A stretch of 37,776 nucleotides of DNA, from positions 1-37,776 of the forward strand of contig CACBWE010000008.1 in NCBI GenBank assembly GCA_902542855.1. Reading direction: 5' to 3'. The notes under the pieces were generated by a model that was given only the letters and a program-made list of their open reading frames with translations, ran no database searches and was not told the origin of the DNA. The first letter of the stretch is position 1. Each line of letters begins with the position of its first letter. Shown piece after piece: positions 3,791 through 33,023 of the stretch. This DNA is from an uncultured Pelagibacteraceae bacterium. Lineage in GTDB: Bacteria; Pseudomonadota; Alphaproteobacteria; Pelagibacterales; Pelagibacteraceae. Position numbers and translations under genes: made by a program.

Positions 3791-4788
3791 CAGAAAAAAT
3801 AAATAAAGAAATTATTCAACCAAAAAAAATGGGATTACTAGTTGAAAACCCTGTTTATAAACCTTTTAGATATCCTTGGTGCTATGATGCTTGGTTAACC
3901 CAGCAAAGAATTCATTGGTTACCAGAAGAAGTTCCTCTTGGAGATGATGTTAAAGACTGGCAAAAAAATCTTTCAGAACCAGAAAAAAATCTACTCACTC
4001 AAATTTTTAGGTTTTTTACTCAAGCTGATGTAGAGGTTAACAATTGTTATTTAAGACATTACACAACTGTATTTAAACCAACAGAGGTATTAATGATGAT
4101 GACGGCTTTCGCTGCAATGGAAACAGTCCATGTAGCTGCTTACTCTCATCTTTTAGATACAATTGGTATGCCTGAGTCAGAATATTCAGCTTTCATGAAA
4201 TACAAAGAGATGAAAGACAAGTACGATTACATGCAGGGTTTCAACGTAAATTCCAAAGAGGATATTGCAAAGACAGTTGCAGTGTTTAGTGCTTTTACAG
4301 AAGGATTACAGTTATTTGCAAGTTTTGCTATTTTGTTAAATTTTCCAAGACACAATAAAATGAAAGGAATGGGACAGATAGTTACTTGGTCTGTAAGAGA
4401 TGAAACACTTCATTGTAATTCTATGATCAGAATTTTTAAGGAGTTTATAAAAGAAAATCCTGAAATCTGGACACCTAAACTTAAAAAAGAACTTTATGAA
4501 GCTTGTAGAACAATTGTTGAGCATGAAGATGCTTTTATCGATTTAGCCTTTGAAATGGGTCCGATGGAAGGTTTAACTGCGCAAGAAGTTAAAGGTTACA
4601 TTAGGTTCATTGCGAATAGACGACTTATTCAATTAGGATTAGAGCCAATTTATGATATTCAAAAAAACCCACTAACTTGGCTTGATACAATGCTTAATGC
4701 AGTTGAGCATATGAATTTCTTCGAAGGTAGAGCGACCGAATATTCTAAAGCATCAACACAGGGTACTTGGGCAGAAGCTTTTAGTTAA
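3781..4788 (+). CDS. nrdB: Class Ia ribonucleotide reductase, radical-generating (beta) subunit
   Basis: 335 residues from the ATG at 3781. A GTG nine bases upstream is in frame, but the AGGAG at 3768-3772 lies 8 nt before the ATG and decides the start. The diiron ligands match the E. coli pattern and spacing: Asp83, Glu114 and His117 (METVH), Glu174, Glu208 and His211 (RDETLH). The radical tyrosine is Tyr121, four residues after the first His. These point to a conventional tyrosyl-radical diiron cofactor rather than a Phe-substituted class Ic site. No ATP-cone is fused to the N terminus. It overlaps nrdA and ends 5 bp from the convergent prpC; the inverted repeat AGTTAAA/TTTAACT (4783-4810) across that junction could be a weak shared terminator. 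Confidence 0.95.
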   Translation: MSVAEKINKEIIQPKKMGLLVENPVYKPFRYPWCYDAWLTQQRIHWLPEEVPLGDDVKDWQKNLSEPEKNLLTQIFRFFTQADVEVNNCYLRHYTTVFKPTEVLMMMTAFAAMETVHVAAYSHLLDTIGMPESEYSAFMKYKEMKDKYDYMQGFNVNSKEDIAKTVAVFSAFTEGLQLFASFAILLNFPRHNKMKGMGQIVTWSVRDETLHCNSMIRIFKEFIKENPEIWTPKLKKELYEACRTIVEHEDAFIDLAFEMGPMEGLTAQEVKGYIRFIANRRLIQLGLEPIYDIQKNPLTWLDTMLNAVEHMNFFEGRATEYSKASTQGTWAEAFS

Positions 4789-4793
4789 AAAAA

Positions 4794-5918
4794 TTATCTT
4801 TGATTTAACTGCATCACTTTTCGATGCTTGTTACCTTTGTAACTAGCTAAAGGTCTAATTAGTTTGTTAGCAGCATGTTGTTCCATTATGTGAGCGGACC
4901 AACCTGTTATTCTTGAAATCACAAATATTGGTGTAAAAAAATCGGTTTCAAATCCCATTAAATGATAAGTAGGTCCTGTAGGATAGTCTACATTAGGATA
5001 TATATTTTTTTCTTTTATCATTACCCTTTCAACAATATCGTAAATTTTCTCGAATTTTTTATCTTTCTTAATTTTTGCAACTTTTGCAAAATACTTCCTC
5101 ATGGTTGGAACTCTAGAATCACCTGATTTATAAACTCTATGTCCAAATCCCATTACCACTTCTTTATTTTTTAAGGCGTTATTTATCCATTTTAAGGCAT
5201 TTTCAGGCTTTTTAATTTTATTCATCATATGCATCACTTCTTCATTAGCTCCACCGTGAAGAGGGCCTTTTAAACTGGCGATTGCACCTGTTATTGCCCC
5301 ATGTATATCAGACAAACTGCTAGTGATTGTTCTTGCCGTAAATGTAGAAACATTAAAACTATGCTCAGCATAAAGAATTAGAGATACATCAAAAGCCTTA
5401 ACAATTTCTTTTTGAGGTACTTTTCCAAAACACATATAGAAAAAGTTTTCAGCAAAAGTTAAAGTTTTTTTTGGTTTAATAATTTTTTTTCCTTTCCTTA
5501 TTCTGTAAAAAGCAGCAAGCGCTGTAGGAGTTTTTGCAAAAATTCTTAGGGCTTTTCTCATATTTGCTTCAGGTGAAGAGTCGGTAGTCTCTTTATCTTC
5601 CAATCCCATTACACTTACAGCAGTCCTAGCTACATCCATCGGATGAGATTTTTTTGGCATATGCCTTATAATCTCATATAAATTTTTAGTTAACTCCCTA
5701 TGATTTCTTTCTTCTTTCTCAAATTTTCTAAGTTCAATAGTATTTGGTAAATCTTTATTTAAAATTAAATATGCAACCTCCTCAAATCTACAATACTCAC
5801 ATAAATCTTGAGCAGCATACCCCCTATAAGTAAGCGAATTAATCTCAGGCATTACTTTTGAAACCTCTGTTTCATCCACAACAATGCCCAGTAATCCCTT
5901 CTTGATATCATCACTCAT
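4794..5918 (-). CDS. prpC: 2-methylcitrate synthase (citrate synthase family)
   Basis: 374 residues. It condenses propionyl-CoA with oxaloacetate to give 2-methylcitrate, the first step of the methylcitrate cycle. Citrate-synthase catalytic residues are present: His221 (GPLHGGANE), His260 followed by Arg261 (GFGHRVYKSGDSR) and Asp311 (NVDYPTG). The length is typical of the short PrpC/type II group. Sequence alone separates PrpC from housekeeping citrate synthase poorly; the call rests mainly on position as the last gene of prpD-prpB-prpC. Its ATG overlaps the prpB stop by one base, so the two are translationally coupled. Confidence 0.88.
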   Translation of the reverse strand: MSDDIKKGLLGIVVDETEVSKVMPEINSLTYRGYAAQDLCEYCRFEEVAYLILNKDLPNTIELRKFEKEERNHRELTKNLYEIIRHMPKKSHPMDVARTAVSVMGLEDKETTDSSPEANMRKALRIFAKTPTALAAFYRIRKGKKIIKPKKTLTFAENFFYMCFGKVPQKEIVKAFDVSLILYAEHSFNVSTFTARTITSSLSDIHGAITGAIASLKGPLHGGANEEVMHMMNKIKKPENALKWINNALKNKEVVMGFGHRVYKSGDSRVPTMRKYFAKVAKIKKDKKFEKIYDIVERVMIKEKNIYPNVDYPTGPTYHLMGFETDFFTPIFVISRITGWSAHIMEQHAANKLIRPLASYKGNKHRKVMQLNQR

Positions 5919-6814
5919 TATTCATGTCCTTCTGTATTAAAATTATAAATTTTCTCATCCAATGAATTATATTTTTCATAATCAACTAATTCATAAAGTC
6001 TTTTTCTAGTTTGCATTTTATCTATAATATTGTTTTGATGTCCATTTGTATAAATGTCTCTCAATCCATCTTCAACATTTTTCATCGCTAATCTTTGTGT
6101 TGTTACTGGATAAATAACAATATTAAAGCCAAGATTTTCCAATTCTTTATAATTAAATAGTTTAGATTTACCAAATTCAGTCATGTTAGCCAAAAGATAA
6201 ACTGATAATTCTTTTCTAACTTTTTCAAAATCTTTTTCATCTTGTAATGCCTCAGGAAATATAATTTCTGCTCCAGCATCAATATATGCCTTACATCTTT
6301 CAATCATTTTATCAATTCCCTCAACACTATTGGCATCTGAACGTGCTATAATTTTAAAATTTTGATCTTTTTTAGCATCAACACATTCTTTAATTTTTTT
6401 AACCATAGCATCAGTTGATATAAGTTCTTTATTATCAAGATGCCCACATCTTTTTCTTTCTATTTGATCTTCCAAATGAACACCAGTTATTCCAAATTCT
6501 TCAAATGTTTCTATGGTTTCTTTACAAGATTTAAATCCTGTATCTATATCAACTATTGTTGGAAGATTTGTCACTCTAGAAATTAAATAAGATCTTGTAC
6601 TAACATCTTGAAGTGTTGTTAATCCAATATCGGGAAATCCAAGATCATTTGCCATTACTCCTCCGGAAACGTAAACCGCATCATATCCAATTTCTTCTAT
6701 TAATTTTGCAGTAAGAGGATTATAGGCACCAGGAACTCTTAATATTTTATTTAATTTTAATTTTTGATCAAAATCTAATCTTTTTTGACTTGGTTCTTTT
6801 TCCACAAAATGCAT
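5918..6814 (-). CDS. prpB: 2-methylisocitrate lyase
   Basis: 298 residues of the isocitrate lyase/PEP mutase superfamily. It cleaves 2-methylisocitrate to pyruvate and succinate, closing the methylcitrate cycle. The catalytic loop KRCGH is at 121-125 with Cys123. The metal-site segment DIDTGF (Asp89, Asp91) and the YVSGG strand near 48-52 fit PrpB, as does ANMTEFGKS later in the chain. Its ATG overlaps the prpD stop by one base and its stop overlaps the prpC start, so the three genes form one tight operon. Confidence 0.92.
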   Translation of the reverse strand: MHFVEKEPSQKRLDFDQKLKLNKILRVPGAYNPLTAKLIEEIGYDAVYVSGGVMANDLGFPDIGLTTLQDVSTRSYLISRVTNLPTIVDIDTGFKSCKETIETFEEFGITGVHLEDQIERKRCGHLDNKELISTDAMVKKIKECVDAKKDQNFKIIARSDANSVEGIDKMIERCKAYIDAGAEIIFPEALQDEKDFEKVRKELSVYLLANMTEFGKSKLFNYKELENLGFNIVIYPVTTQRLAMKNVEDGLRDIYTNGHQNNIIDKMQTRKRLYELVDYEKYNSLDEKIYNFNTEGHE

Positions 6815-8316
6815 TAAAAAATTCCTTTTTTATTATTTCTTTTTAATTTTCTTTTGTTTACCTCAATATTTAATTTATGAAGATGTCCTGATTTTAAATT
6901 TTTTAAATTTTGTACTGTTTTTAAAAAACGATCACTCTCTTTTTTATCTAAAATACCATCAGTTAAAGTTAAAAATTTGTTTATATAATTTTGTCTTTTA
7001 AATGGTCTAGCCCCATATGGATGCGCGTCTGCTCTATCTAGTTTCTCAGTTACTTTTTTTCCATTATTTAGTGTCACAACAACTTTAGCACCAAATGATT
7101 TATTTTTAGGGTTTGGGTCATGATATTTTTTTGTCCATTTCTTATCTTCATAAGTTTTAATTGATCTCCAAACTTTAATTGTGCTTTTTCTATTAGCTCT
7201 AGCTTTCGTATATGATTTCACATGATGCCAATCTCCGTCTTCTAATGCTACAGCAAATATGTACATTATAGAATGATCCAGTGTTTCTCTACTTGCTTTA
7301 GGATCCATTTTTTGTGGATCATTTGCACCTGTTCCAATAACATAATGAGTGTGATGACTTGTAAATATATCAATTTTTTTAATTTGATTTAAACTTGGAA
7401 TTTTTATTTTAAGCTTTTTCGCTAAATCTATTAATGCTTGTGATTGATATTCAGCCGAATATTCTTTTGTATATGTTTCCAAAATAGCTTTTTTACTTTC
7501 ACCTTTTTTTGGTAAAGGGACTTTATATTTTGCTTTTTTTCCATCTAATATTCTTGCAATTACACTATCTTCGCCCTCATATATTGGACTGGGAGCTCCT
7601 TCACCTCTCATAGCTCTATCAACTGCTTCAATAGCAAGTTTTCCAGCATGTGCAGGAGCGTAAGCCTTCCAACTTGAAATCTCTCCTTTTCTAGATTGTC
7701 TTGTAGATATTGTTGTATGTAGTGCTTGTTGAACAGCTTGATAAATTGTTTCAGTTTTTAATTTTAACATTGCTCCTAATCCAGCAGCTACACTTGGACC
7801 TAAGTGAGCAATGTGATCAACTTTATGCTTATGTAAACAAATTCCTTTAACTAAATTAACTTGAACTTCGTATGCAGTAATTATTCCTTTTAATAAATCC
7901 AACCCACTTTTTTTGTTTTGTTGTGCAACACTTATAAGTGGAGGTATGTTGTCACCAGGATGACTATAATCTGCAGCTAAAAAGGTGTCATGAAAGTCTA
8001 ACTCTCTAACAGCCGTCCCATTTGACCATGCTGCCCATTCACAATCAAATTTTAATCTTGAATTTACTCCAAATATAGTTGCTCCATTCTTTCTAGAATG
8101 TTTCAAAGCCATTTCTCTAGATGAGATTACTGGCTTTCTATTTAATGAAGCAAGAGCAACAGAAGCATTATCAATAATTCTATTGATAACCATTTCAACA
8201 GCAGCTTTATTTAATTTTGCATTATCACTGGCTATCTCAGCTATTTTCCAAGCAAGTTGTTTCTTCTTTGGAAGGTTGATTTTTGACGGATATACTTTAA
8301 CTGTGTGTAATAACAA
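6814..8316 (-). CDS. prpD: 2-methylcitrate dehydratase (MmgE/PrpD family)
   Basis: 500 residues. It dehydrates 2-methylcitrate to 2-methyl-cis-aconitate. The opening HTVKVYPSK...[15 protein letters not shown] and the later [20 protein letters not shown] segment are characteristic of PrpD. The start is a TTG at 8314-8316: an AGGAG (8322-8326 on this strand) sits 5 nt upstream, no ATG occurs in frame before an upstream stop, and the next in-frame ATG would remove more than 40 conserved residues. It leads the prpDBC operon. A 53-bp gap separates it from gph on the same strand, so read-through from gph is possible. Confidence 0.92.
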
Positions 8317-8369
8317 AATAACTCCTAATTTGTGATTTTGTTTTAATAGTTAAAATAAATTAATCAATA

Positions 8370-9053
8370 TTAAAGATATTTAGATATTATTTTCTCAATA
8401 CCTACAAAGTCTTTTATTAAGTGATTATGATAAATTTCATCAATATTTTTTTCAGTATATCCGTCTTCCAATAAGATAATTGGTATTTCAGCTGCCTTTG
8501 CAGCATTTGCATCAGTTTCACTATCACCTATCATTATCGATTTTTTTATATCTCCATCTAGTATTTCAACCACAGAGGTAAGATGTCTTGGATCTGGTTT
8601 ACAATAATCAAAAGTATCTGATCCAGCTACATATTCAAAATAATCATAAATGCCAATTTTTTTTAATAGATCATTTGATAATCGTTCTTGTTTATTTGTA
8701 CAAACACCCATGGATATACTTTGATCTTTGCACCAATTTAAAAATTCTTTTACACCTTTTATGAGGGTACTTTCATTTATTATATTCTTTCCATAAAAAT
8801 CAACAAATTCTGTTACCATTTCATTTTTTACCTTTTCATCATTTACTTTTCCAAATTCTTTTTTTGCCTGGCCCCATATAGATCTTCCAATCATTGCACC
8901 AGCACCCTTACCAACAAGATTTCTAATTTCTTCAGTTGATTTAGTTGGGTAGCCAAATTTCTTCATAACATGGTTATGAGCCCTCATTAGATCTGGAGCA
9001 GTATCAACTAATGTACCATCTAAATCGAATAAAATTGTAAATTTTTGTTTCAT
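8370..9053 (-). CDS. gph: Phosphoglycolate phosphatase-type HAD hydrolase
   Basis: 227 residues with complete HAD motifs: DLDGTLVDT (nucleophile Asp10, acid Asp12), GVCTNK with its Thr, the Lys in YCKPDPRH, and MIGDSETDANAA for Mg2+ binding. The cap domain and length fit the Gph/PGP group, which removes phosphate from 2-phosphoglycolate. Related phosphatases such as pyrophosphatase PpaX share these features, so the substrate is inferred. It lies upstream of prpDBC on the same strand and diverges from the glmU-like gene across 69 bp. Confidence 0.8.
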   Translation of the reverse strand: MKQKFTILFDLDGTLVDTAPDLMRAHNHVMKKFGYPTKSTEEIRNLVGKGAGAMIGRSIWGQAKKEFGKVNDEKVKNEMVTEFVDFYGKNIINESTLIKGVKEFLNWCKDQSISMGVCTNKQERLSNDLLKKIGIYDYFEYVAGSDTFDYCKPDPRHLTSVVEILDGDIKKSIMIGDSETDANAAKAAEIPIILLEDGYTEKNIDEIYHNHLIKDFVGIEKIISKYL

Positions 9054-9737: not shown

Positions 9738-11558
9738 ATGTGTGGAATTATTGGAATATCAAGCAACAAATCTGTTTCAGCAAATATAATTAATTCTTTA
9801 AAAAAATTAGAGTACAGAGGATACGACTCAGCTGGTATCGCTACACTTTCAGACGGTGAAATCTATGAGGTAAAATCAGAGGGTAGAGTAGATAATCTAG
9901 AAAGTAATTTTGATTTAAAAAATTTGAAAGGAAATATTGGAATTGGGCATGTAAGATGGGCAACACATGGCATTCCTAATAGCATTAATGCTCATCCACA
10001 TTCCTCTCATAACGTATCAGTAGTTCATAATGGAATTATTGAAAATTCTACAATACTAAAAAAATATTTGATTAACAAAGGGCACAACTTCAAATCTCAG
10101 ACAGACACAGAGGTAATCGTTCATTTAATAACAGAACATTTAAAAACCTCAGAACTGGAGGAAGCTATAACAAAAACATTAAAACAACTCCACGGTAGTT
10201 TTGCACTTGGAATTGTATTCAAGGATATGCCAGATTTAATAGTTGGTGCAAGAAGAGGATCGCCTTTGGCAGTTGGTTATGGTCCAAATGAAAATTATCT
10301 GGGTTCAGACTCTTATGCTTTAAAATCAATGACAAATAAAATCACTTATCTAGAAGATGGAGAATTTTGTGTAATTAAAAAAGATCAAGTTCTTTTTTTT
10401 AATGATGAAGGTAAAAAAGTTAATAAAAAAATATTAGAATTATCATCAGACGAGGCTAGTTATGACAAAGGTGATTTTAAACATTTCATGGCTAAAGAAA
10501 TTGAAGAACAACCTACAACAATCAAAACTGGAATTAAAGAATATATAGATAATGTAAACAATGAGATAAATATTTTTAATTTTCCATGGAAAATGGAAGA
10601 AGTTAAATCAATAACTTTAGTAGGTTGTGGAACTGCATACCATTCTTGTTTGATGGCAAAATATTGGTTTGAAGAACTTACTTCTTTAGATGTTAATATA
10701 GATATAGCCTCAGAATTTAGATATAGAAAAAATAGATTTAAAAGTGACACTTTATATATTTTTGTTTCACAATCTGGAGAAACTGCAGATACATATGCAG
10801 CATTAGATCTTTGTAATAAAAATAATATGAAAACTTGCGCTATTGTAAATGTAATTGAAAGTTCAATAGCTAGAGATTCTAATTTTGTATTACCAATTCA
10901 TTGTGGTCCTGAAATAGGAGTAGCTTCAACAAAAGCATTTTTAGGTCAAATACTTGTTTTGTATATTTTGGCTTTAAAACTAGGATCATTAAGAAATGAA
11001 ATTGAGAAAAAAGAATATCAAGATAAAATTAAAGACCTAAAAGATTTACCAAAATTGATACAAAAAACATTATTGCATGACAATGATATCCAAGCAATAT
11101 CCTCAACATTTAATGAGGCAAAAGGTTCAATGTTCTTGGGTAGAGGTTACTCATACCCAATAGCTTTAGAAGGTGCATTAAAACTTAAAGAACTTTCATA
11201 TATTCATGCAGAAGGATATCCAGCAGGTGAAATGAAACATGGACCACTAGCATTAATTGAAGAGGGTATGCCTGTAGTAGTTTTGGCACCGAGAGATAAT
11301 TATTATAAAAAGACAATTTCAAATATGCAGGAAGTAATAGCAAGAGGAGCAAAAGTATTATTAATAACTAGTAAAAGTAAAGATGAAGTTATCTCAGAAA
11401 ATATTTGGGAGACTATAGAAGTAGAAAATACAAATGATGATTTGCTTCCATTTCTTCTAACTATTCCACTACAAAAACTTGCTTATTACTCTGCTCTTAA
11501 AAAAGGTTATGACATTGATAAGCCAAGAAATTTGGCTAAATCTGTCACTGTTGAATAA
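9738..11558 (+). CDS. glmS: Glutamine--fructose-6-phosphate aminotransferase (isomerizing)
   Basis: 606 residues, full length. Domain 1 is a class II glutamine amidotransferase with the N-terminal nucleophile Cys2 (MCGIIG), GHVRWATHG and TDTEV. Domain 2 has two SIS modules with SQSGETADT and STKAF, and the C terminus ends in KSVTVE as in other GlmS proteins. It makes glucosamine-6-phosphate, committing carbon to peptidoglycan and LPS amino sugars. It is cotranscribed with the GlmU acetyltransferase domain three bases upstream. There is no room for a glmS ribozyme. Confidence 0.97.
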   Translation: MCGIIGISSNKSVSANIINSLKKLEYRGYDSAGIATLSDGEIYEVKSEGRVDNLESNFDLKNLKGNIGIGHVRWATHGIPNSINAHPHSSHNVSVVHNGIIENSTILKKYLINKGHNFKSQTDTEVIVHLITEHLKTSELEEAITKTLKQLHGSFALGIVFKDMPDLIVGARRGSPLAVGYGPNENYLGSDSYALKSMTNKITYLEDGEFCVIKKDQVLFFNDEGKKVNKKILELSSDEASYDKGDFKHFMAKEIEEQPTTIKTGIKEYIDNVNNEINIFNFPWKMEEVKSITLVGCGTAYHSCLMAKYWFEELTSLDVNIDIASEFRYRKNRFKSDTLYIFVSQSGETADTYAALDLCNKNNMKTCAIVNVIESSIARDSNFVLPIHCGPEIGVASTKAFLGQILVLYILALKLGSLRNEIEKKEYQDKIKDLKDLPKLIQKTLLHDNDIQAISSTFNEAKGSMFLGRGYSYPIALEGALKLKELSYIHAEGYPAGEMKHGPLALIEEGMPVVVLAPRDNYYKKTISNMQEVIARGAKVLLITSKSKDEVISENIWETIEVENTNDDLLPFLLTIPLQKLAYYSALKKGYDIDKPRNLAKSVTVE

Positions 11559-26983: not shown

Positions 26984-27384
26984 TGTTGTATTTTGCATAT
27001 GGTAGCAATCTTCATCACTTTCAAATGAAACGTAGATGTAAAGACAGTATTTTTTTAAAAAAAATAAATCTAAAAGATTTTAAATTAACCTTTAGAAGCA
27101 AATATAGAGCTGCAGATATAGAGGCAAAAAAAAATTCAATTGTACCAGGTGCTTTATTTGAAATTTCTAAAAGTGATGAAAAAAAGTTAGATGTGTATGA
27201 AGATTTTCCAATACTATATAAAAAACATTATTTCAATTATTATGGAAAGAAAGTGATGACTTATACAATGGTTAAAAAATCTCCATTCAAATTTCCAACT
27301 GAAAGATATTTAAATGTTGTAAAAAAGGGTTATCAAGATTGTAAACTTGATAAAAGATTTTTACTTAAAGCACTAAGAACGTAA
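26983..27384 (+). CDS. Gamma-glutamylcyclotransferase-like (GGCT/AIG2) protein
   Basis: 133 residues. The nucleotide-free YGSNL motif at 6-10 and an acidic residue at the catalytic position (Glu73 in VYEDFP) identify the GGCT-like fold. Such enzymes release 5-oxoproline from gamma-glutamyl groups, for example in glutathione turnover, but several subfamilies differ in substrate. It overlaps the CinA-like gene by one base and ends 6 bp from the convergent glycosyltransferase gene. Confidence 0.75.
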   Translation: MLYFAYGSNLHHFQMKRRCKDSIFLKKINLKDFKLTFRSKYRAADIEAKKNSIVPGALFEISKSDEKKLDVYEDFPILYKKHYFNYYGKKVMTYTMVKKSPFKFPTERYLNVVKKGYQDCKLDKRFLLKALRT

Positions 27385-27390
27385 ATAAGA

Positions 27391-28611
27391 CTATAGATAA
27401 TATTTATTATCTTCATTAACAGCTTTTTCTAATCTTAATAAAAAATCTGGGATAGCGCTTTTAACTCTACTCCATGTTGGTATGAAAGGAGCATCCATCG
27501 GATTTAAATAAAAATCTTCACCAGCTCTAATTATATTTCTTGAAAATAATTCAACTGCTTTTTCTTCAGAATGTGAGTCAAATTTCAAACCATTCATTTC
27601 AGCATCACCTCGATAAGCGTCAATTAAATCAAGTGCTGACCTATAGTATGTTGCTTTAAGTGATCTTAATTCTTCTCTACTAAACGAGTGACCTTGTGTA
27701 GCAAGTTTTTTGATAAAGGTTTTAATAATATCAATGGACATTCTTGATAGACCTTTATTTTCATCATCAATAGATAAATCCTGATGCTTGTGGTCATAAG
27801 TATCTGCTAAATCAACCTGACAGATGTTTTGTGGAGAAAAGTTTCTTTGCATTTCTGACAAAATTCCAATTTCTATTCCCCAGTCTGATGAAATTCTTAA
27901 TTCAGGGAGAATGTTTCTCCTAAAAGAAAATTCCCCAGCTAGCGGGTATCTAAATGATTTCATAAAATCCAAATATTCACTCTTACCTATTGTTTTTTCT
28001 AAAGCGTTTAATATCGGAAATACTAACAGTCTGGCTACTCTTCCATTCATTTTATTATCTGCTACTCGAGGATAGTAACCTTTACAAAATTCAAAATTGA
28101 ATAAAGGATTAACTACCGGGTAAAATAATTTTGCGAGCATCCTTCGATCGTATGTTTTTATATCACAATCATGTAAAGCAACTGATCTTGCACTATTTCT
28201 TGCTATTGACATACCAATACAATACCAAACATTTCTTCCTTTGCCTTTTTCATTTGGGGCTAGTGCTTTTTTTTGTAATTCTTTATCTAATTTTTTTAAA
28301 TTTGGACCATCATTCCAGAGTATTGTGAAAGGGGTTTCTAATTTTTCGAAAAATGTCCATGCTTTCCTAGCCTGTTTTTCATTAGCTTGATCTAATCCTA
28401 TTATTATATGATGCAGATAGTTAGTTTGAGCAATTTCAGAAACAATTTTTGGTAATGCATCTCCTTTTAACTCGCTATAAAGACATGGCAAGATAAGCTC
28501 CATTTTCCTCTCTTTTGAAAAACTTAAAAGCTCTTTCTCTATTTGTTTCGTTGACTTTGTTCCAAAGTCATGAAGTGTGGATATGATTCCATTTTGTGTA
28601 AATTCACTCAT
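27391..28611 (-). CDS. gpgS: Probable glucosyl-3-phosphoglycerate synthase (GT-A glycosyltransferase)
   Basis: 406 residues. An N-terminal LILPCLYSEL strand, the D-x-D metal site HDCDI (Asp148, Asp150) and FCKGYYPR, then RYPLAGEFSFRR and SDWGIEIG, fit the GT81-type family. That family makes glucosyl- or mannosyl-3-phosphoglycerate from NDP-sugar and 3-phosphoglycerate. The adjacent upstream gene encodes a phosphoglycerate-sugar phosphatase-type HAD protein, so together they should make glucosylglycerate, a nitrogen-free compatible solute. Glucosyl versus mannosyl specificity is inferred. Confidence 0.7.
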   Translation of the reverse strand: MSEFTQNGIISTLHDFGTKSTKQIEKELLSFSKERKMELILPCLYSELKGDALPKIVSEIAQTNYLHHIIIGLDQANEKQARKAWTFFEKLETPFTILWNDGPNLKKLDKELQKKALAPNEKGKGRNVWYCIGMSIARNSARSVALHDCDIKTYDRRMLAKLFYPVVNPLFNFEFCKGYYPRVADNKMNGRVARLLVFPILNALEKTIGKSEYLDFMKSFRYPLAGEFSFRRNILPELRISSDWGIEIGILSEMQRNFSPQNICQVDLADTYDHKHQDLSIDDENKGLSRMSIDIIKTFIKKLATQGHSFSREELRSLKATYYRSALDLIDAYRGDAEMNGLKFDSHSEEKAVELFSRNIIRAGEDFYLNPMDAPFIPTWSRVKSAIPDFLLRLEKAVNEDNKYYL

Positions 28612-28619
28612 ACAGTTTT

Positions 28620-29426
28620 TTATAAACTTTTATTTATTTTAACTAGAGCTATTTTAATCACATCTGCCCAGCCCTCAGGTGATGGCTTGTTGGTTGTAAT
28701 TAAGTTATTTATTGGAATTTCATCTAAAGTGAATTTATCATTAAATACTAAGCAAGGAAAATCACTTGTTTTCAACATATCTAAGTCATTATAATTATCT
28801 CCAACTGCCACTGTTTTTACATTTTTATGATATTTTTTATAAAATCTAACAAATACTCGAAGAGCTTTAGCTTTATTTACTCTATCAGTTAAATTAATTA
28901 CCCTGCCACCTTCTTGCAACGAAAGACCATCTTTTTTTATTATTTTTGATAATTGATTTTTTTCATTTTTAGTTCCATTAAATATAAAAGGAATAGTATA
29001 TCTACGATCTAAAGCCATTTTCAGTTTTTTATCATTTAAACCAAAAATTAAACTTTGGTTTATATTATTCATTTCAGATAACCATTTGCATTTATTTTGT
29101 AGGTTTAATGGAACTATATTTTTAAAAATATAAAAAATATCCTCTTTTTCTCTACTAAGAATTAATTCTTTAGGTAAATCTGGATTTAATAAGTCTAAGC
29201 CATTAATAGCTGCGCCATTTTCAGAAATATATGGCAAATTTGAACCTAGCTCACTATTAAACTCTAAAATTTCTTTTTCAGTTTTGCTTGTATTAGGTAT
29301 AATAAAAACATCTTTGGAAATTAGTTTTATTAAATAATTTTTTATCTCATCAAATTTAAATGTATCTCTGTGAAGAAGTGATCCATCAAGGTCTGTAAAT
29401 ATTAAAACTTTGAATGTTTTTTCCAT
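28620..29426 (-). CDS. gpgP: Probable glucosyl-3-phosphoglycerate phosphatase (HAD-IIB, MpgP-like)
   Basis: 268 residues of the HAD-IIB (Cof-like) group. TDLDGSLL carries nucleophile Asp12 and Asp14, followed by PNTSKTEKEI, SENGAAI and the Mg2+ motif VAVGDNYNDLDML. The pattern is that of mannosyl-3-phosphoglycerate phosphatase. It would remove the phosphate from the product of the glycosyltransferase 8 bp downstream. A candidate promoter on this strand (TTGTTA 29457-29462, TATAAA 29436-29441) ends 9 nt before the ATG. Confidence 0.72.
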   Translation of the reverse strand: MEKTFKVLIFTDLDGSLLHRDTFKFDEIKNYLIKLISKDVFIIPNTSKTEKEILEFNSELGSNLPYISENGAAINGLDLLNPDLPKELILSREKEDIFYIFKNIVPLNLQNKCKWLSEMNNINQSLIFGLNDKKLKMALDRRYTIPFIFNGTKNEKNQLSKIIKKDGLSLQEGGRVINLTDRVNKAKALRVFVRFYKKYHKNVKTVAVGDNYNDLDMLKTSDFPCLVFNDKFTLDEIPINNLITTNKPSPEGWADVIKIALVKINKSL

Positions 29427-29520
29427 TATTTAATATTTATAAAATATTCAAATAAATAACAATTTTACATATTATCCTTGTTCAATTATAAATATTAGCA
29501 TAAACACTCATGAAATTCAT

Positions 29521-29563
29521 TAATGCCCTCGTGGTGAAATTGGTAGACACAAAGGACTTAAAA
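29521..29563 (+). repeat. Left copy of 43-bp direct repeat: truncated 5' half of tRNA-Leu (att-like)
   Basis: Bases 29521-29563 are identical to 30590-30632. They comprise 4 bp of upstream sequence plus the first 39 nt of tRNA-Leu, ending exactly at the 3' edge of the anticodon loop (CTTAAAA). After that the sequence diverges (AGTATTC instead of TCCTTGC), so no tRNA can fold. It marks the original position of the tRNA 5' end before insertion of island 1. Confidence 0.9.
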
Positions 29564-29618
29564 AGTATTCAAAACTAAGGTTCCACTAATAAACTCAACG
29601 TTTTTTGATAAAATTGAA

Positions 29619-29640
29619 CTAGTGTAGTTCTAGTGTAGTT
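29619..29640 (+). repeat. Left arm: two tandem 11-bp repeats CTAGTGTAGTT
   Basis: CTAGTGTAGTT occurs at 29619-29629 and 29630-29640 with no gap. The pair starts 55 bp inside the left tRNA repeat. The same tandem pair recurs near the right end in the same orientation. The 11-bp helical period suggests adjacent protein-binding sites such as integrase arm sites. Confidence 0.9.
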
Positions 29641-29660
29641 AGTAGAATGACGAAATGTTT

Positions 29661-29701
29661 TACTACACTAGAAGTATACATGTCATTAAAAACTACACTA
29701 G
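29661..29701 (-). repeat. Inverted copies of the 11-bp arm repeat
   Basis: AACTACACTAG, the exact reverse complement of the arm repeat, is at 29691-29701, and a 10-of-11 match (TACTACACTAG) is at 29661-29671. They lie 30 bp apart, between the left tandem pair and the first cargo gene. No inverted copies occur at the right end. Confidence 0.85.
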
Positions 29702-29743
29702 AATAATTCTTGGAAAATTCGCTAAAAATTATAAAATTAAATT

Positions 29744-30187
29744 ATGAGTTACATAAAAACAAACCTAACTAATAATGAAAAATTAAAATATCATTCTAGA
29801 ATTTCTCTGAAACCAATTCTAATAAATTATTTTGCCTTAATAATAATAGGTTTTTTTGCTGGTTATGGAATCACAGATTGGTTTTTAGGATTAACTATAT
29901 CTGTATTAATTTTTATTATTTACTTACCTTTTGTTTTAATTGATTATTTTGGTTCTGAGTTTGGTGTTACAGGAAAAAGAGTTATTAGCAAAAAAGGCAT
30001 AATTAGTAGAAATGCCTCAGAAATGAACTTAAGTTCTATAGAAAGTGTTAATGTTGACCAAGGTATTATTGGAAGAATTTTAAATTATGGTACAGTTAAA
30101 ATATCAGGAAGAGGAACTACAACAGTTGATTTTAAAAATATTGATGAACCGGTGAAAGTTAGAAAGTTAATACAAAATAAGGACTAA
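29744..30187 (+). CDS. Two-TM membrane protein with bacterial PH (YdbS/DUF304-like) domain; island 1 cargo
   Basis: 147 residues. After a polar lead, hydrophobic segments at about 25-43 and 47-67 should form a membrane hairpin. The C-terminal 75 residues (FGVTGKRVISKKGIISR, LSSIESVNVDQGIIGRILNYG and an F-x-x-I-x-x-P segment) match the bacterial PH-like domain of YdbS/YdbT-type proteins. The role of such proteins is poorly known; some are linked to membrane or stress functions. It is the first of two genes inside island 1, and a TAATATG junction couples it to the next. Confidence 0.8.
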   Translation: MSYIKTNLTNNEKLKYHSRISLKPILINYFALIIIGFFAGYGITDWFLGLTISVLIFIIYLPFVLIDYFGSEFGVTGKRVISKKGIISRNASEMNLSSIESVNVDQGIIGRILNYGTVKISGRGTTTVDFKNIDEPVKVRKLIQNKD

Positions 30188-30188
30188 T

Positions 30189-30482
30189 ATGAAAAAGTAT
30201 GTTTTAATTATATTTCTTTTTTTAACTAATTTTAGTTATGCTGGACAATATGAGATGGAGCAGGCAGCAAAGACTATACCAGGTGTTGCTGATGCTGCTT
30301 TTCAAGGAAGTTCTTCATTTTGGGTTGTAATGTCAAATCCAAACGCTGGTCATGATTATGATTATTATGGTTCTATGCTTTGTAATGGTGGACAACAAAA
30401 TTTTGGTGTTAAAAAAGGTTATACAATTACCTTTTGGAATGCTTACACAAAAAAACCAATTAAAAAATTTAGATGTTTTTAA
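30189..30482 (+). CDS. Small secreted protein of unknown function; island 1 cargo
   Basis: 97 residues with a clear signal peptide; cleavage is expected after FSYA (residue 18), leaving about 79 residues. The mature part contains two cysteines (Cys65 and Cys96, the penultimate residue) that could form a disulfide, and is rich in Tyr and Gly. I do not recognise the family. It begins one base after the preceding stop, so the two are coexpressed and may work together at the inner membrane and periplasm. Confidence 0.7.
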   Translation: MKKYVLIIFLFLTNFSYAGQYEMEQAAKTIPGVADAAFQGSSSFWVVMSNPNAGHDYDYYGSMLCNGGQQNFGVKKGYTITFWNAYTKKPIKKFRCF

Positions 30483-30509
30483 ATAAAATTGGATTTATCC
30501 TAAAAATTT

Positions 30510-30531
30510 CTAGTGTAGTTCTAGTGTAGTT
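30510..30531 (+). repeat. Right arm: two tandem 11-bp repeats CTAGTGTAGTT
   Basis: Exact copies of the left arm unit at 30510-30520 and 30521-30531, ending 58 bp before the right tRNA repeat. They start 28 bp after the last cargo stop. If the element were circular, the two arm pairs would flank the tRNA core almost symmetrically. Confidence 0.9.
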
Positions 30532-30589
30532 ATAAAAAATTAATAATTTGATTTTTGATGATAAAAAAAGTAAGTAAACACAGTTCAAA

Positions 30590-30632
30590 TAATGCCCTCG
30601 TGGTGAAATTGGTAGACACAAAGGACTTAAAA
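30590..30632 (+). repeat. Right copy of 43-bp direct repeat (inside intact tRNA-Leu)
   Basis: Identical to 29521-29563 and forming the 5' half of the functional tRNA-Leu. Only 4 bp of sequence upstream of the tRNA are shared; everything further upstream is element DNA. Confidence 0.9.
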
Positions 30633-30679
30633 TCCTTGCCGCTTGCGGAGTGCCAGTTCGAGTCTGGCCGAGGGCACCA
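30594..30679 (+). tRNA. tRNA-Leu (anticodon UAA)
   Basis: 86 nt including encoded CCA. The acceptor stem GCCCTCG/CGAGGGC, anticodon stem AAGGA/TCCTT with loop CTTAAAA, long variable arm and T-arm GCCAG-TTCGAGT-CTGGC all fold. Its 5' half coincides with the right island 1 repeat, so its upstream region belongs to the element. The spacer before it contains TAAACAC (30575-30581), also present before the truncated copy, which may be the -10 region. nadK starts 4 nt after the CCA. Confidence 0.95.
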
Positions 30680-30683
30680 TTAA

Positions 30684-31454
30684 ATGAGCAAACTTCATAT
30701 CATTTCAGATAAAAATAAAAAATCTTCAAAGATCAAAAATTTATTGATTAAAAAAATCAATTCTAATCATTTTAGAAAAGAAAATCTTATCATTGTTATC
30801 GGTGGTGATGGCTTTATGCTTCAAACACTTAAAAAGAATAAGTATTCTAACAAACATTTTTATGGGATCAATTCTGGAAATTATGGATTTCTTATGAATA
30901 AATTTTCATCAAAAGATATTATTAAAAATTTATCAAAAGCAAACTTGGTTACAATTTCTCCTCTAGAAATGCTAGTTAAAACTAGAAATGATCAAATAAG
31001 AAGATCTATAGCAATTAATGAAGTATCTGTTCTTAGACAAAGTAGACAGGCTGCTTCATTGTCAATTAAGCAAGGTTCAAGACAAATAATTAAAAAATTA
31101 GTTTCAGATGGTGTACTAGTATCAACACCTGCAGGAAGCACGGCCTATAATCTTTCAGTTCATGGACCTATATTAAGTCTTCATTCAAAAAAATTATCAA
31201 TATCACCAATAAGTGCATTTAGACCAAGAAGATGGAAAGGCAAGATAGTTAATGATAAAACTAAAATAGTTATAACAAACTTAAATCCAACTAAGCGACC
31301 TATTAGCGCTGTCGCTGATAATTTAGAAGTAAGAAATGCTAAGTCAATTACAGTTAAAACTAATAATAACATAAAGTTTAATCTTCTTTATGACAAAAAT
31401 AGAAGTCTGCAAAAAAAGATTAAAATTGAACAAATAAGAAGAGAAACTAGTTAA
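30684..31454 (+). CDS. nadK: NAD kinase
   Basis: 256 residues. GGDG (40-43) in VIGGDGFML and NE (112-113) in AINEVSVLR are the ATP/NAD-binding motifs, and STPAGSTAYNLS is the conserved core loop. It phosphorylates NAD+ to NADP+. The ATG lies 4 nt after the tRNA-Leu CCA, leaving no room for a separate promoter or Shine-Dalgarno, so it should be cotranscribed with the tRNA and left near-leaderless when the tRNA 3' end is cut. A further exported-protein gene follows 4 bp later. Confidence 0.92.
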   Translation: MSKLHIISDKNKKSSKIKNLLIKKINSNHFRKENLIIVIGGDGFMLQTLKKNKYSNKHFYGINSGNYGFLMNKFSSKDIIKNLSKANLVTISPLEMLVKTRNDQIRRSIAINEVSVLRQSRQAASLSIKQGSRQIIKKLVSDGVLVSTPAGSTAYNLSVHGPILSLHSKKLSISPISAFRPRRWKGKIVNDKTKIVITNLNPTKRPISAVADNLEVRNAKSITVKTNNNIKFNLLYDKNRSLQKKIKIEQIRRETS

Positions 31455-31458
31455 ATAA

Positions 31459-32040
31459 ATGAAAAAACTTTTAAAGATCATGGTTCTTTATTTATTATGG
31501 ATTATTCCAGTATTAGCTGATGAAAGATTTATTCCTTTAGAGCTCTTCACTGGCAGTGAAATAAGAGAAGATACTGAAATTAAATTTACAAACGCTAATT
31601 TGATATTTGGTGAAAAGAAAAGAAAAAAAATAGTTGGACCTGAGGATTGGAAAAATCCTCAAACTGGAGAAACAATTAAAGTTTATAAAAGAACAAGAAA
31701 AAGTCAAAGTGGACTTAAAACACAGTTATTTTCAGTCACTAATGATGGACAGTGTATAGGTAGAGTTTGGGATAGTAGACGTGGAGGGAGAATAATTGAA
31801 AATGGATGTAAATTTCCTTTAGGAGTTTGGAAAGAAGGTGAGACTAGATCATTTATAGGTGCTTCTGGTGGTAAGCCAAGAAAAATAGAATTGACTATTT
31901 TAAAATTAGGAAAGAAGCAGAAAGATAAAGTAAAATTTAATTGGAAACTTTATGATGGAAGTGGAACATTAATGGATGACAATGATTATACTTTTTCCCC
32001 TGGAAAAGCTATGACTAAGCTTAATGATAAAAAATTATAA
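31459..32040 (+). CDS. Exported protein of unknown function
   Basis: 193 residues with a signal peptide; likely cleavage is after residue 20 (PVLA-DE). The mature part is basic and has two cysteines (DGQCIGRVW and ENGCKFPLG) that could pair. A G-V-W-K-E-G-E-T-R-S-F segment and a beta-rich C-terminal half suggest a periplasmic beta-sandwich, but I do not recognise a family. It sits 4 bp after nadK, outside both islands. Confidence 0.65.
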   Translation: MKKLLKIMVLYLLWIIPVLADERFIPLELFTGSEIREDTEIKFTNANLIFGEKKRKKIVGPEDWKNPQTGETIKVYKRTRKSQSGLKTQLFSVTNDGQCIGRVWDSRRGGRIIENGCKFPLGVWKEGETRSFIGASGGKPRKIELTILKLGKKQKDKVKFNWKLYDGSGTLMDDNDYTFSPGKAMTKLNDKKL

Positions 32041-32113
32041 TTAATCTCTTCACAATACTTTAAGTTTTTTGGGTTTATTAAAAAAAATAATTAGTGTTGA
32101 ATTTATTGAGTGA

Positions 32114-32167
32114 TGGTGCCCCCGCACGGATTCGAACCGCGGACCTATTGATTACAAATCAATTGCT
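32114..32167 (-). repeat. Left copy of 54-bp direct repeat: truncated 3' part of tRNA-Thr (att-like)
   Basis: Identical over 54 bp to 32915-32968. On the minus strand it comprises tRNA-Thr nucleotides 23-76: the last bases of the D-stem, the anticodon arm, T-arm, acceptor 3' strand and CCA. The 5' portion is absent (sequence continues TTTTAAAT), so it is not a functional tRNA. It is the displaced 3' end of the original gene. Confidence 0.92.
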
Positions 32168-32218
32168 AAAATTTAAATAAACATTTGTTTACAACAATAA
32201 TTTTGAAATATTTTTAAC

Positions 32219-32240
32219 TTGGCAACAATCTGGCAACAAT
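32219..32240 (+). repeat. Left arm: two tandem 11-bp repeats (Y)TGGCAACAAT
   Basis: TTGGCAACAAT (32219-32229) and CTGGCAACAAT (32230-32240) are adjacent with an 11-bp period. A weaker match, ACAACAAT, lies 30 bp upstream at 32191-32198. The arm ends 14 bp before the lipoprotein ATG. Confidence 0.88.
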
Positions 32241-32254
32241 GATAGGATTTTATA

Positions 32255-32806
32255 ATGTTTAAAATATTTTCAAAAATATTTATTATCTGTTCGGCTTTTA
32301 TATTATTTGGTTGTGCTACCTCACAAGTAAGCATGGTTGGTGAAAAAGTTTCTTTGGCAAGTTATAAGAACATAGCATTAAGCGGTAATTCAGGAGTGCT
32401 AGGCCAAGCGGTTGCAAATGAGTTAGCTAGTAGAGGCTACAGAATTTCAAGTCCTGGTAAAACAAGCTCGCTTATGTTGAGACTTAATCTAAATGAAGCT
32501 GAAATTACAGAACCAAAAAATTTACAACTATTATCTAAAGAAGGTGTTGATGCTGTAATAGTAGTTAATGCTGTTGGTGGTTATGATCAAATGCCACAAA
32601 GTGCTAGTGTTCAAATTCTTGAAACTAAATCTCTTGAAATTTTAGCTGGAGTAAATTGGCAAAATGGCTGGGGAGGTCAGCAAGGTTCTATAGCAGATAG
32701 AGTAATGAGAAAAGGACTGACAAGATCCGCTAAAGAAATTGTTAATGCATTAGACGCATCTTATTCAAGTGCTGGTAAAAAAGTTCTTAATATCTTAACT
32801 GAATAA
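32255..32806 (+). CDS. Lipoprotein of unknown function; island 2 cargo
   Basis: 183 residues. A signal sequence ends in lipobox LFGC with acylated Cys20. The mature part begins with a short linker, then a strand/helix pattern (YKNIALSGNSGVLGQAVANELASRGYRIS; DAVIVVNAVGGYDQ; ASVQILETKSLEILAGVNW) reminiscent of CsgG/LpoB-like or related outer-membrane lipoprotein folds. I cannot assign a family with confidence. It is the only gene in island 2 and is packed tightly between the arm repeats. Confidence 0.75.
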   Translation: MFKIFSKIFIICSAFILFGCATSQVSMVGEKVSLASYKNIALSGNSGVLGQAVANELASRGYRISSPGKTSSLMLRLNLNEAEITEPKNLQLLSKEGVDAVIVVNAVGGYDQMPQSASVQILETKSLEILAGVNWQNGWGGQQGSIADRVMRKGLTRSAKEIVNALDASYSSAGKKVLNILTE

Positions 32807-32825
32807 TATTTATCGACTACTTGAT

Positions 32826-32858
32826 TAAGCAACAATTCTGCAACAATCCTGCAACACT
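32826..32858 (+). repeat. Right arm: three tandem 11-bp repeats of the GCAACAAT type
   Basis: GCAACAAT recurs at 32829 and 32840 and as GCAACACT at 32851, an exact 11-bp period, in the same orientation as the left arm. The first starts 22 bp after the lipoprotein stop and the last ends 56 bp before the right tRNA repeat. Confidence 0.87.
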
Positions 32859-32914
32859 TATTGTCGTAAGAATAGTTTTTTGTATAAATAAATTTTATTA
32901 AAAAGTAAGTGAAG

Positions 32915-32990
32915 TGGTGCCCCCGCACGGATTCGAACCGCGGACCTATTGATTACAAATCAATTGCTCTACCAGCTGAGCTACAAGGGC
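32915..32990 (-). tRNA. tRNA-Thr (anticodon UGU)
   Basis: 76 nt with encoded CCA. Acceptor GCCCTTG pairs with CGGGGGC using two G-U pairs; the anticodon stem ATTGA/TCAAT carries loop TTTGTAA with anticodon TGT; the T-loop is TTCGAAT. Its last 54 nt are the right repeat of island 2. It lies downstream of rlmB on the same strand. Confidence 0.95.
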
Positions 32991-33023
32991 ATGCGCAATA
33001 ATTATTAATTATTTGTTAAATAA

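Follow-up and report, generated by a model that had tools for sequence, protein, structure and literature searches.

Probable non-autonomous integrative cassettes with paired arm sites at two tRNA genes of SAR11 bacteria

SAR11 bacteria are among the most abundant bacteria and have very small genomes. We analyzed 37,776 nucleotides from an uncultured Pelagibacteraceae bacterium (contig CACBWE010000008.1 of assembly GCA_902542855.1, positions 1 to 37,776 of the forward strand; hereafter, the window), in which a tRNA-Leu(TAA) gene and a tRNA-Thr(TGT) gene each adjoin a short segment bounded by direct repeats of part of the tRNA (cores) and carrying tandem 11-bp repeats (arms) inside both ends. 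Each of these segments likely represents a non-autonomous integrative cassette, that is, a tRNA core, arm sites, one to few cargo genes, arm sites and a second core. The anatomy, the constant ends with exchanged cargo, the matching of arms, the empty and filled sites, the stacking, the near-identical cassettes and the related circles are all apparent at the level of sequence comparison.

Cassettes at tRNA-Leu and tRNA-Thr

An earlier note on this DNA, made from the sequence alone, had described perfect 43-bp and 54-bp tRNA repeats delimiting units of 1069 and 801 bp, and these coordinates proved exact to the base. The direct repeat at the Leu site occupies positions 29521-29563 and 30590-30632, and that at the Thr site, 32114-32167 and 32915-32968; exact repeats of these lengths are not expected by chance in 4.6 kb. 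The Leu core derives from the 5' part of the tRNA and the Thr core from the 3' part, and no second copy of the tRNA-Leu(TAA) or tRNA-Thr(TGT) gene was detected by ARAGORN. The features of the two segments and of the gene between them are:

29521..29563, plus strand: left Leu core, 43-bp copy of the 5' part of tRNA-Leu(TAA) (repeat comparison)
29619..29640, plus strand: left Leu arms, CTAGTGTAGTT twice (repeat search; kept in Leu-B cassettes, see below)
29662..29671 (one base short of the full arm) and 29691..29701, minus strand: inverted arm copies at the left Leu end (sequence inspection)
29744..30187, plus strand: cargo 1a, 147-aa protein with a bacterial PH domain (PF03703, E 1.4e-15; phrog_3707, E 7e-25)
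30189..30482, plus strand: cargo 1b, 97-aa small secreted-type protein with a signal-like N-terminus and no family match
30510..30531, plus strand: right Leu arms, CTAGTGTAGTT twice (repeat search)
30590..30632, plus strand: right Leu core, overlapping the intact tRNA-Leu gene (repeat comparison)
30594..30679, plus strand: tRNA-Leu(TAA), intact (ARAGORN)
30684..31454, plus strand: NAD kinase, between the two tRNA sites (PF20143, E 6e-10; matches in 80 of 121 mostly incomplete genomes of the genus)
32114..32167, unstranded: left Thr core, 54-bp copy of the 3' part of tRNA-Thr(TGT) (repeat comparison)
32220..32240, unstranded: left Thr arms, TGGCAACAATC and TGGCAACAAT (identical arms in L035 with different cargo)
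32255..32806, plus strand: cargo 2, 183-aa lipoprotein-like protein (lipoprotein call by eye)
32829..32858, unstranded: right Thr arms, three imperfect units GCAACAATTCT, GCAACAATCCT and GCAACACT (TGGCAACAATC-type repeats at 32829-32856)
32915..32968, unstranded: right Thr core, within the intact tRNA-Thr gene (repeat comparison)
32915..32990, minus strand: tRNA-Thr(TGT), intact (ARAGORN)

The tandem 11-bp arms that the note had placed at both ends of each unit are present, but not everywhere in that simple form: the right Thr array consists of about three imperfect units, and the left Leu end adds two inverted copies. For cargo 2, a crude lipobox rule was negative and a signal rule positive; its Pfam matches were to Epimerase (E 5.5e-5, 23.1 bits with a cut-off of 20.9) and, below threshold, to TraT (E 0.003). 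The ORF (open reading frame) list and the Pfam and PHROG searches revealed no recombinase or transfer genes inside the two window cassettes, and no phage-type integrase was found in the window's own assembly, which is 60% complete. We infer that the flanking repeats act as attL and attR.

Constant ends and exchanged cargo

We compared 61 core-to-core segments, comprising the two of the window, 54 from relatives and five from loci L158-L161, which were chosen for carrying the window's arm. By their left ends, these segments fall into 28 Leu-A, 18 Thr (including that of the window), 5 Leu-B (the type of the window's Leu segment), one pair and 8 singletons, and their 145 ORFs of at least 70 aa form 118 families. 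One segment, THR_L072_672, is an artefact that overlaps a Leu cassette; it is included in the 61 segments, the 145 ORFs and the arm-matching tests, and excluded from the cargo protein lists. Length was at most 6 kb in 58 of the 61 segments. Tandem cassettes were observed among the relatives, and some segments show no tandem arms. With few end families enclosing mostly unrelated cargo, these data bear out the earlier proposal of a general class of cargo cassettes in this lineage; likewise, the suggested search for other short tRNA-flanked segments with 11-bp arms turned up many.

The constancy of the ends is most pronounced in Leu-B. The left end is near-invariant over about 140 bp in 12 distinct loci (14 aligned rows, with L055 identical to L171 and L158 to L178), the window diverging in the last part of this stretch and L055 in the first. 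An abrupt change follows at the cargo boundary, with the cargo start codon at or shortly behind it, and the right end is again near-invariant from the arms through the core. The window's Leu arm was found in 13 named contigs, all from uncultured Pelagibacteraceae, which places the lineage in SAR11, and some of them identical to contigs of the G loci. Leu-B is a minority type, given that the doubled window Leu arm (with at most two mismatches) occurs in 7 of 399 genus genomes. In Leu-A cassettes, the arms together with adjoining bases are repeated at both ends of the cargo.

The cargo ORFs of at least 100 aa lie mostly in one orientation (Leu 77 versus 6, Thr 33 versus 0; this count omits the artefact and the integrase islands L090 and L075). 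By a crude rule, 50 of 94 cargo proteins have a signal- or membrane-like N-terminus, compared to 0 of 29 window ORFs outside 27380-33000. Family scans covered 92 of 105 cargo proteins, 13 near-duplicates or paralogues being omitted, and two further window proteins; among the matches listed (25 of 69 Pfam and 25 of 47 PADLOC families) were pilin-like N-terminal motifs, restriction-modification, a transport-binding protein and metabolic enzymes.

Several cassettes show unusual internal layouts. The Leu-A cassette of L046 (oriented 3111-8757) contains eleven related ORFs in a row, and those inspected start like pilins (MNRKAFTLIELLVVVAIIG), so that the cargo is pilin-like and multi-copy. L081 (oriented 10669-10896) has a cassette of 228 bp in which cores, 10-bp repeats and arms are present but no ORF reaches 70 aa; it looks like an empty cassette. 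In L177 (oriented about 217-2200), a second cargo gene is preceded by another copy of the inner part of the Leu-B left end, which would fit a fusion of two cassettes with loss of the intervening core. The kept left end of Leu-B (window 29645-29700) also includes a short open frame, MTKCFTTLEVERYKLGTL, which is present in most copies, changed in the window and, in some copies, joined in frame to the cargo; it may be a leader peptide, an integrase remnant or a chance frame. As the start of a lost helper's integrase, this frame found no match in a degenerate search of viral contigs, and the conservation of the block is equally explained by binding sites, since the conserved block stops at the inverted half arm.

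Arm words are paired within cassettes

Leu-A arms start about 122-130 bp inside the left core; at the right end, they mostly start 100-105 bp ahead of the core, with distances of 93 and 115 bp in two cases. The arm words themselves are many and differ among cassettes. Within a cassette, however varied the words, the two ends carry matching arm words in 22 of 28 cases, compared to a mean of 2.2 and a maximum of 9 when right ends were shuffled (400 shuffles). At the Thr site, a looser test also gave more matches than shuffling (see below). Such matching is what would be expected if a recombinase must bind both ends; plain homology would not enforce it.

Integrase-bearing elements share the Leu core and arm layout

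The same tRNA-Leu core is occupied by an 8.8-kb element in G120 (L090) that encodes a 551-aa tyrosine recombinase and by an integrated 7776-bp element in G168 (L186) that encodes one of 545 aa. In six elements, the integrase gene starts 136-137 bp from the start of a 34-bp core string, with the left arms within its first codons. The arm word of the G168 element, ACTAGAAAC, also occurs in four integrase-less cassettes, and that of the G120 element, ACCAGCACA, in three. The idea that integrases could be located through matching arms thus worked for the Leu-A type, with the same core and identical words, but not for the window arms (see below). The six integrases share R378/R379, K406, R491, H514 and Y524, which we take to be the catalytic positions of a tyrosine recombinase.

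Three viral contigs (L123, L138, L142) have 99-123 bp terminal repeats, indicating circles of 7.7-8.9 kb, and a gene order like that of the integrated elements. L123 has profile matches to an integrase (phrog_1, E 4e-20; PF00589 below its cut-off), a primase-helicase and a RusA-like protein, and family searches of 7 of its 8 main ORFs found no structural or capsid gene. L138, L142 and L186 were assigned by integrase homology and gene order only. The helper elements are present in viral contigs, and presence there is no proof of packaging. Integrases of the G120/G168 type are rare: they were detected in 4 of 181 genomes of the genus, of which two have only distant versions (27-35% identity), one of these being broken, and, by profile, in 4 viral contigs; the L123 integrase had no match in the phage collection, and the integrase profile had none among solved structures. 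In alignments, the Leu-A cassettes seem to have kept the 5' portion of the integrase gene that contains the arms, minus the start codon, and deletion from such elements is therefore their probable origin.

The Leu core is present in 23 viral contigs. Four encode close relatives of the G120 integrase; two (L139, L141) encode distant ones, with 11-bp arms on both sides; six lack a matched integrase; and 11, in which 11-bp arms were not detected, encode another integrase family. The Leu core is thus also used by elements lacking this arm layout. This other family is matched by a 349-aa integrase lying directly upstream of the NAD kinase in L067 (6312-7358), where no Leu core was recognised. In two viral contigs, L131 (5061-5094) and L126 (140-173), the Leu core follows ATGAAATTCATTAAT, as it does at Leu-A right ends. 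L131 has, in addition, 11-bp arms (ACCTGTACATG) that lie 87 bp ahead of the core, so it may include a cassette end, either in a viral contig or in a mislabelled host contig.

At the Thr core, the viral contig L163 encodes an integrase, an AAA protein and a terminase small subunit and has 11-bp arms flanking the core on either side; it is possibly a satellite or phage at tRNA-Thr. L075 is a 7.7-kb integrase-bearing island at the same core. The arm words of both differ from the window's Thr arms. Integrases related to that of L163 were found in 5 of 181 genomes, with no Leu or Thr core in the stretches examined.

Near-identical cassettes in divergent genomes

A cassette shared by L062 and L089 is 97.1% identical over its whole 2814 bp, whereas the NAD kinase, SpoU and EF-Tu genes of the two are 75.6%, 77.1% and 86.4% identical, respectively. 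Between L062 and L077, 2.7 kb are 99.1% identical, compared to 86-89.5% for core genes. A glycosyltransferase-HAD cassette shared by L037 and L043 is 97.0% identical over 2136 bp, with NAD kinase at 81.6%. A whole cassette with 97% identity in genomes whose NAD kinases are 76% identical indicates that it moved as a unit.

Empty, filled and stacked sites

We searched 121 genomes of the genus with the NAD kinase and obtained 80 matches, including the window's own genome; of the 79 others, the 59 best-scoring loci were compared, and core counts include loci cut by contig ends. Zero, one, two and three Leu cores were present in 2, 31, 19 and 7 loci, and the same numbers of Thr cores in 8, 33, 15 and 3. 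At least two cores were thus found in 26 of 59 loci for Leu, 18 of 59 for Thr and 32 of 59 for one or both sites. The uninterrupted tRNA loci sought in relatives do exist: 16 of 59 loci have an empty Thr site, with a single core 4-13 bp after the NAD-kinase match, and native sequence upstream of tRNA-Leu is present in 6 loci, 4 of which (4/59) have a single core. Partial tRNA copies detected by BLAST (any tRNA part of at least 30 bp, in 64 loci including the window and four picked for its arm) numbered 42 for tRNA-Leu and 32 for tRNA-Thr, and none for the neighbouring tRNA-Tyr, tRNA-Gly and tRNA-Trp.

The features that lie upstream of each window segment are:

27391..28611, minus strand: glycosyltransferase-like gene (named from context, without family match)
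28620..29426, minus strand: HAD hydrolase gene (PF08282)
29440..29523, unstranded: right end of an upstream Leu-A cassette (93% over 84 bp against the L037/L043 cassette right ends, E 4e-33)
31459..32040, plus strand: 193-aa secreted-type protein gene, followed by a Thr-type right end
32041..32113, unstranded: right end of an upstream Thr cassette (best 79% over 63 bp against the L085 Thr right end, E 1e-11)

In L037 and L043, a Leu core stands on each side of the glycosyltransferase-like/HAD pair, and 27391..29426 is probably the cargo of an additional Leu-A cassette whose left core is missing in the window. Similarly, the 193-aa gene is probably the cargo of an additional Thr cassette that has lost its left end. 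The sequence to the left of each island looks like the right end of a different cassette, so that four cassettes are probably present in the window, with two stacked at each tRNA and the outer ones lacking a recognisable left core; the two mini-islands of the earlier note are confirmed as such, but its count of two is probably too low.

Mechanism and alternatives

Under the preferred interpretation, a tyrosine recombinase would be supplied in trans by a small integrative element encoding an integrase, a primase-helicase and a RusA-like protein, and would bind the arms at both cassette ends. The cassette, alone or together with a neighbouring helper, would be excised as a circle and integrate at the same tRNA in a new cell, where it would restore the tRNA gene that the insertion splits, the cassette right end presumably supplying the promoter of the restored gene. 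A promoter scan gave 26 promoter-like sites, compared to 17.9 (sd 4.1) expected, and the promoter/terminator scan gave no terminator; folding of the Leu fragment yielded nothing. Passage from cell to cell might involve excision with a neighbouring helper or packaging with a helper. In Leu-A, the direct repeats on either side of the cargo contain the arms, and recombination between these repeats may exchange the cargo; the best hint is the ORF-less 228-bp L081, which looks like a product of such an event. More broadly, and with more doubt than conviction, we can envisage an integron-like cassette economy without integrons in SAR11, with a large common pool of cassettes that each hold one to few genes between uniform attP-type ends and use two tRNA genes as sites. 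The arm word of each cassette would key it to a single integrase specificity, rare satellite-like integrative elements would move it in trans, and cargo would be exchanged between the arm repeats.

A number of observations weigh against recombinase-driven mobility. Single-core loci are the commonest state at both sites (Leu 31/59, Thr 33/59), and only 4 of the 31 single-core Leu loci have native upstream sequence; most of the others carry a right end of the Leu-A type at that place and are not plainly empty, so that gain and loss are not polarised. At the Thr site, a strict tandem-arm test gave 2 matches of 18 (shuffles: mean 0.25, highest 2), and the Thr result depends on a looser test, selected after the strict one, in which the right arm word recurs in the left end in 11 of 21 segments (L075 omitted by length; 15 with a right tandem word), with a shuffled mean of 3.4 and 0 of 2000 shuffles reaching 11. 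Of the five arm words of helpers, as read by eye, only 2 are exactly identical to cassette words (binomial P 0.011, position-wise model). No helper for the window arms CTAGTGTAGTT and GCAACAAT was found in viral contigs, in phages or in 8 genomes that carry these arms (the Leu arm in 7, the Thr arms in 1); 4 of the 8 have one 325-aa integrase of a kind widespread in the genus and 4 have none. Neither excision nor a circular junction of a cassette was seen among the sequences compared. Furthermore, some shared cassettes are barely closer than core genes; older shared stretches are 84% versus 78% identical in L057/L160, 79% versus 74.5% in L053/L089 and 80.5% versus 78.5% in L046/L073.

An alternative is that cassettes are moved and swapped by homologous recombination following DNA uptake or transduction, with the tRNA cores, constant ends and flanking genes as the shared sequence and the att sites as relics that provide only homology. 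Such a process could move cassettes without any integrase, in keeping with none having been found in the own genome and with carriers that have the common 325-aa type or none, and the repetition of Leu-A arms and adjoining bases at both cargo ends, like the cargo-free L081, would also fit. Nevertheless, we regard it as unlikely: left and right arm words are paired within cassettes even though the other end sequence is family-wide, the arm-core distance is constant to a few bases in most cassettes, integrase-bearing circles have the same layout, and homology alone does not require 11-bp phasing.

That the segments are inert remnants of old prophages or islands, now fixed after loss of the integrase and interior, seems highly improbable. 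The apparent 5' integrase part without start codon in Leu-A left ends points in this direction, as do segments without a core (window 27391-29426 and 31459-32040) or without tandem arms; but the same ends enclose unrelated cargo, cassettes are 96-99% identical across genomes with 76-89% identical core genes, and the window's cores are perfect. The possibility raised earlier, that larger integrase-bearing versions would reduce the cassettes to simple deletion derivatives, thus holds in part, as Leu-A cassettes probably have such an origin. The unrelated cargo within constant ends and the transfer of whole units nevertheless set the cassettes apart from one-off remnants. An artefact of single-cell amplification or chimeric binning is barely credible: although all 13 named contigs with the window's arm come from uncultured assemblies, the same ends and phasing recur in dozens of independent assemblies, and the controls at neighbouring tRNAs are clean.

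Relation to known systems and significance

Cis-mobilizable elements (CIMEs) are att-flanked derivatives of integrative and conjugative elements that lack an integrase, are moved by conjugation and accrete in tandem with a related integrative element. The SAR11 cassettes are likewise flanked by putative att sites, integrase-free and arranged in tandem; unlike CIMEs, they are often near 1-2 kb, exchange cargo within constant ends and vary in arm words from cassette to cassette, and no conjugation gene was noticed in them. Encoding a tyrosine recombinase is a criterion for tycheposons and virion-encapsidated integrative mobile elements (VEIMEs). The 7.7-8.9 kb integrase and primase elements resemble this class: L123 and, as assigned by homology and gene order, L138, L142 and L186 combine a tyrosine recombinase and a replication gene with a tRNA att site and no capsid genes. 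In contrast, the window cassettes have no integrase, and the cassettes have no replication genes. Tycheposons and VEIMEs are marine integrative elements proposed to be satellites (PMC11389934, PMC10803314, PMC10872708). Like integron cassettes and CALINs (clusters of attC sites lacking integrases) (PMC11389934), the SAR11 cassettes form cargo arrays that probably rely on an integrase in trans and lie mostly in one orientation, but each has two tRNA-derived repeats and arm sites rather than a single attC, and the related enzyme is a phage-type tyrosine recombinase.

The closest likeness is to tRNA-targeted gene cassettes with tRNA direct repeats in additive flexible genomic islands (fGIs) of 'Ca. 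Actinomarinales' (PMC7771536) and to the tRNA-Lys repeats before the additive island fGI-2 of 'Ca. Methylopumilus' (PMC10872708), which share the partial-tRNA direct repeat at the far end of the insert, the fixed position, the variable content and a streamlined aquatic host. Those hosts are Actinobacteria and Methylophilaceae, whereas the present cassettes are from SAR11, and, unlike our account of the latter, the excerpted descriptions mention no arm sites, arm matching, matched integrase element or constant ends beyond the tRNA repeat (PMC7771536, PMC10872708). A 39-kb temperate SAR11 phage integrates at tRNA-Leu(TAG) with an 11-bp core, its own tRNA-Leu replacing the lost one (PMC6811365); both it and the cassettes use a tRNA-Leu, but the cassette site is tRNA-Leu(TAA), with a 43-bp core and a 1-kb unit. 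Other SAR11 papers mention a tRNA-Val prophage and flexible islands, and their excerpts do not describe tRNA cassettes of this kind (PMC7542561, PMC7318151). In limited searches of the open-licence full-text literature, we found no description of the att anatomy, arm matching and matched helpers. tRNA-repeat cassettes in other streamlined aquatic bacteria were already known.

Despite small genomes and rare prophages (PMC7771536 for the latter), SAR11 holds a large flexible gene pool, and a metagenomic study described its specific gene transfer mechanisms as unknown (PMC7542561). Cassettes that use fixed tRNA sites and carry readable arm keys would offer a concrete and testable route of gene transfer, carrying envelope-type proteins, pilin-like proteins and restriction-modification genes, and might be a way for very small genomes to trade genes with a recombinase probably borrowed from small mobile elements. 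The arm keys would allow helpers and cassettes to be paired from sequence; if they act as key and lock, they would partition the cassette pool among helper lineages.

Additional observations

The viral contig L031, the sole exact match to the doubled Leu arm among viral contigs, was rejected as a helper: no tRNA and no nearby Leu core were found in it, and its ORFs, judged by reading without family search, are other phage-type genes. In motif and tRNA scans, the viral contigs L032 and L033 matched only the spaced GCAACAAT motif. In L072, the Leu cores are preceded by a Thr core fragment and a gene related to the window's 193-aa gene; cassettes of both sites may stand in one row there, or a rearrangement may have occurred. 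In L056, tRNA-Thr and SpoU lie upstream of tRNA-Leu in opposite orientation, and the region between the two sites seems to be inverted.

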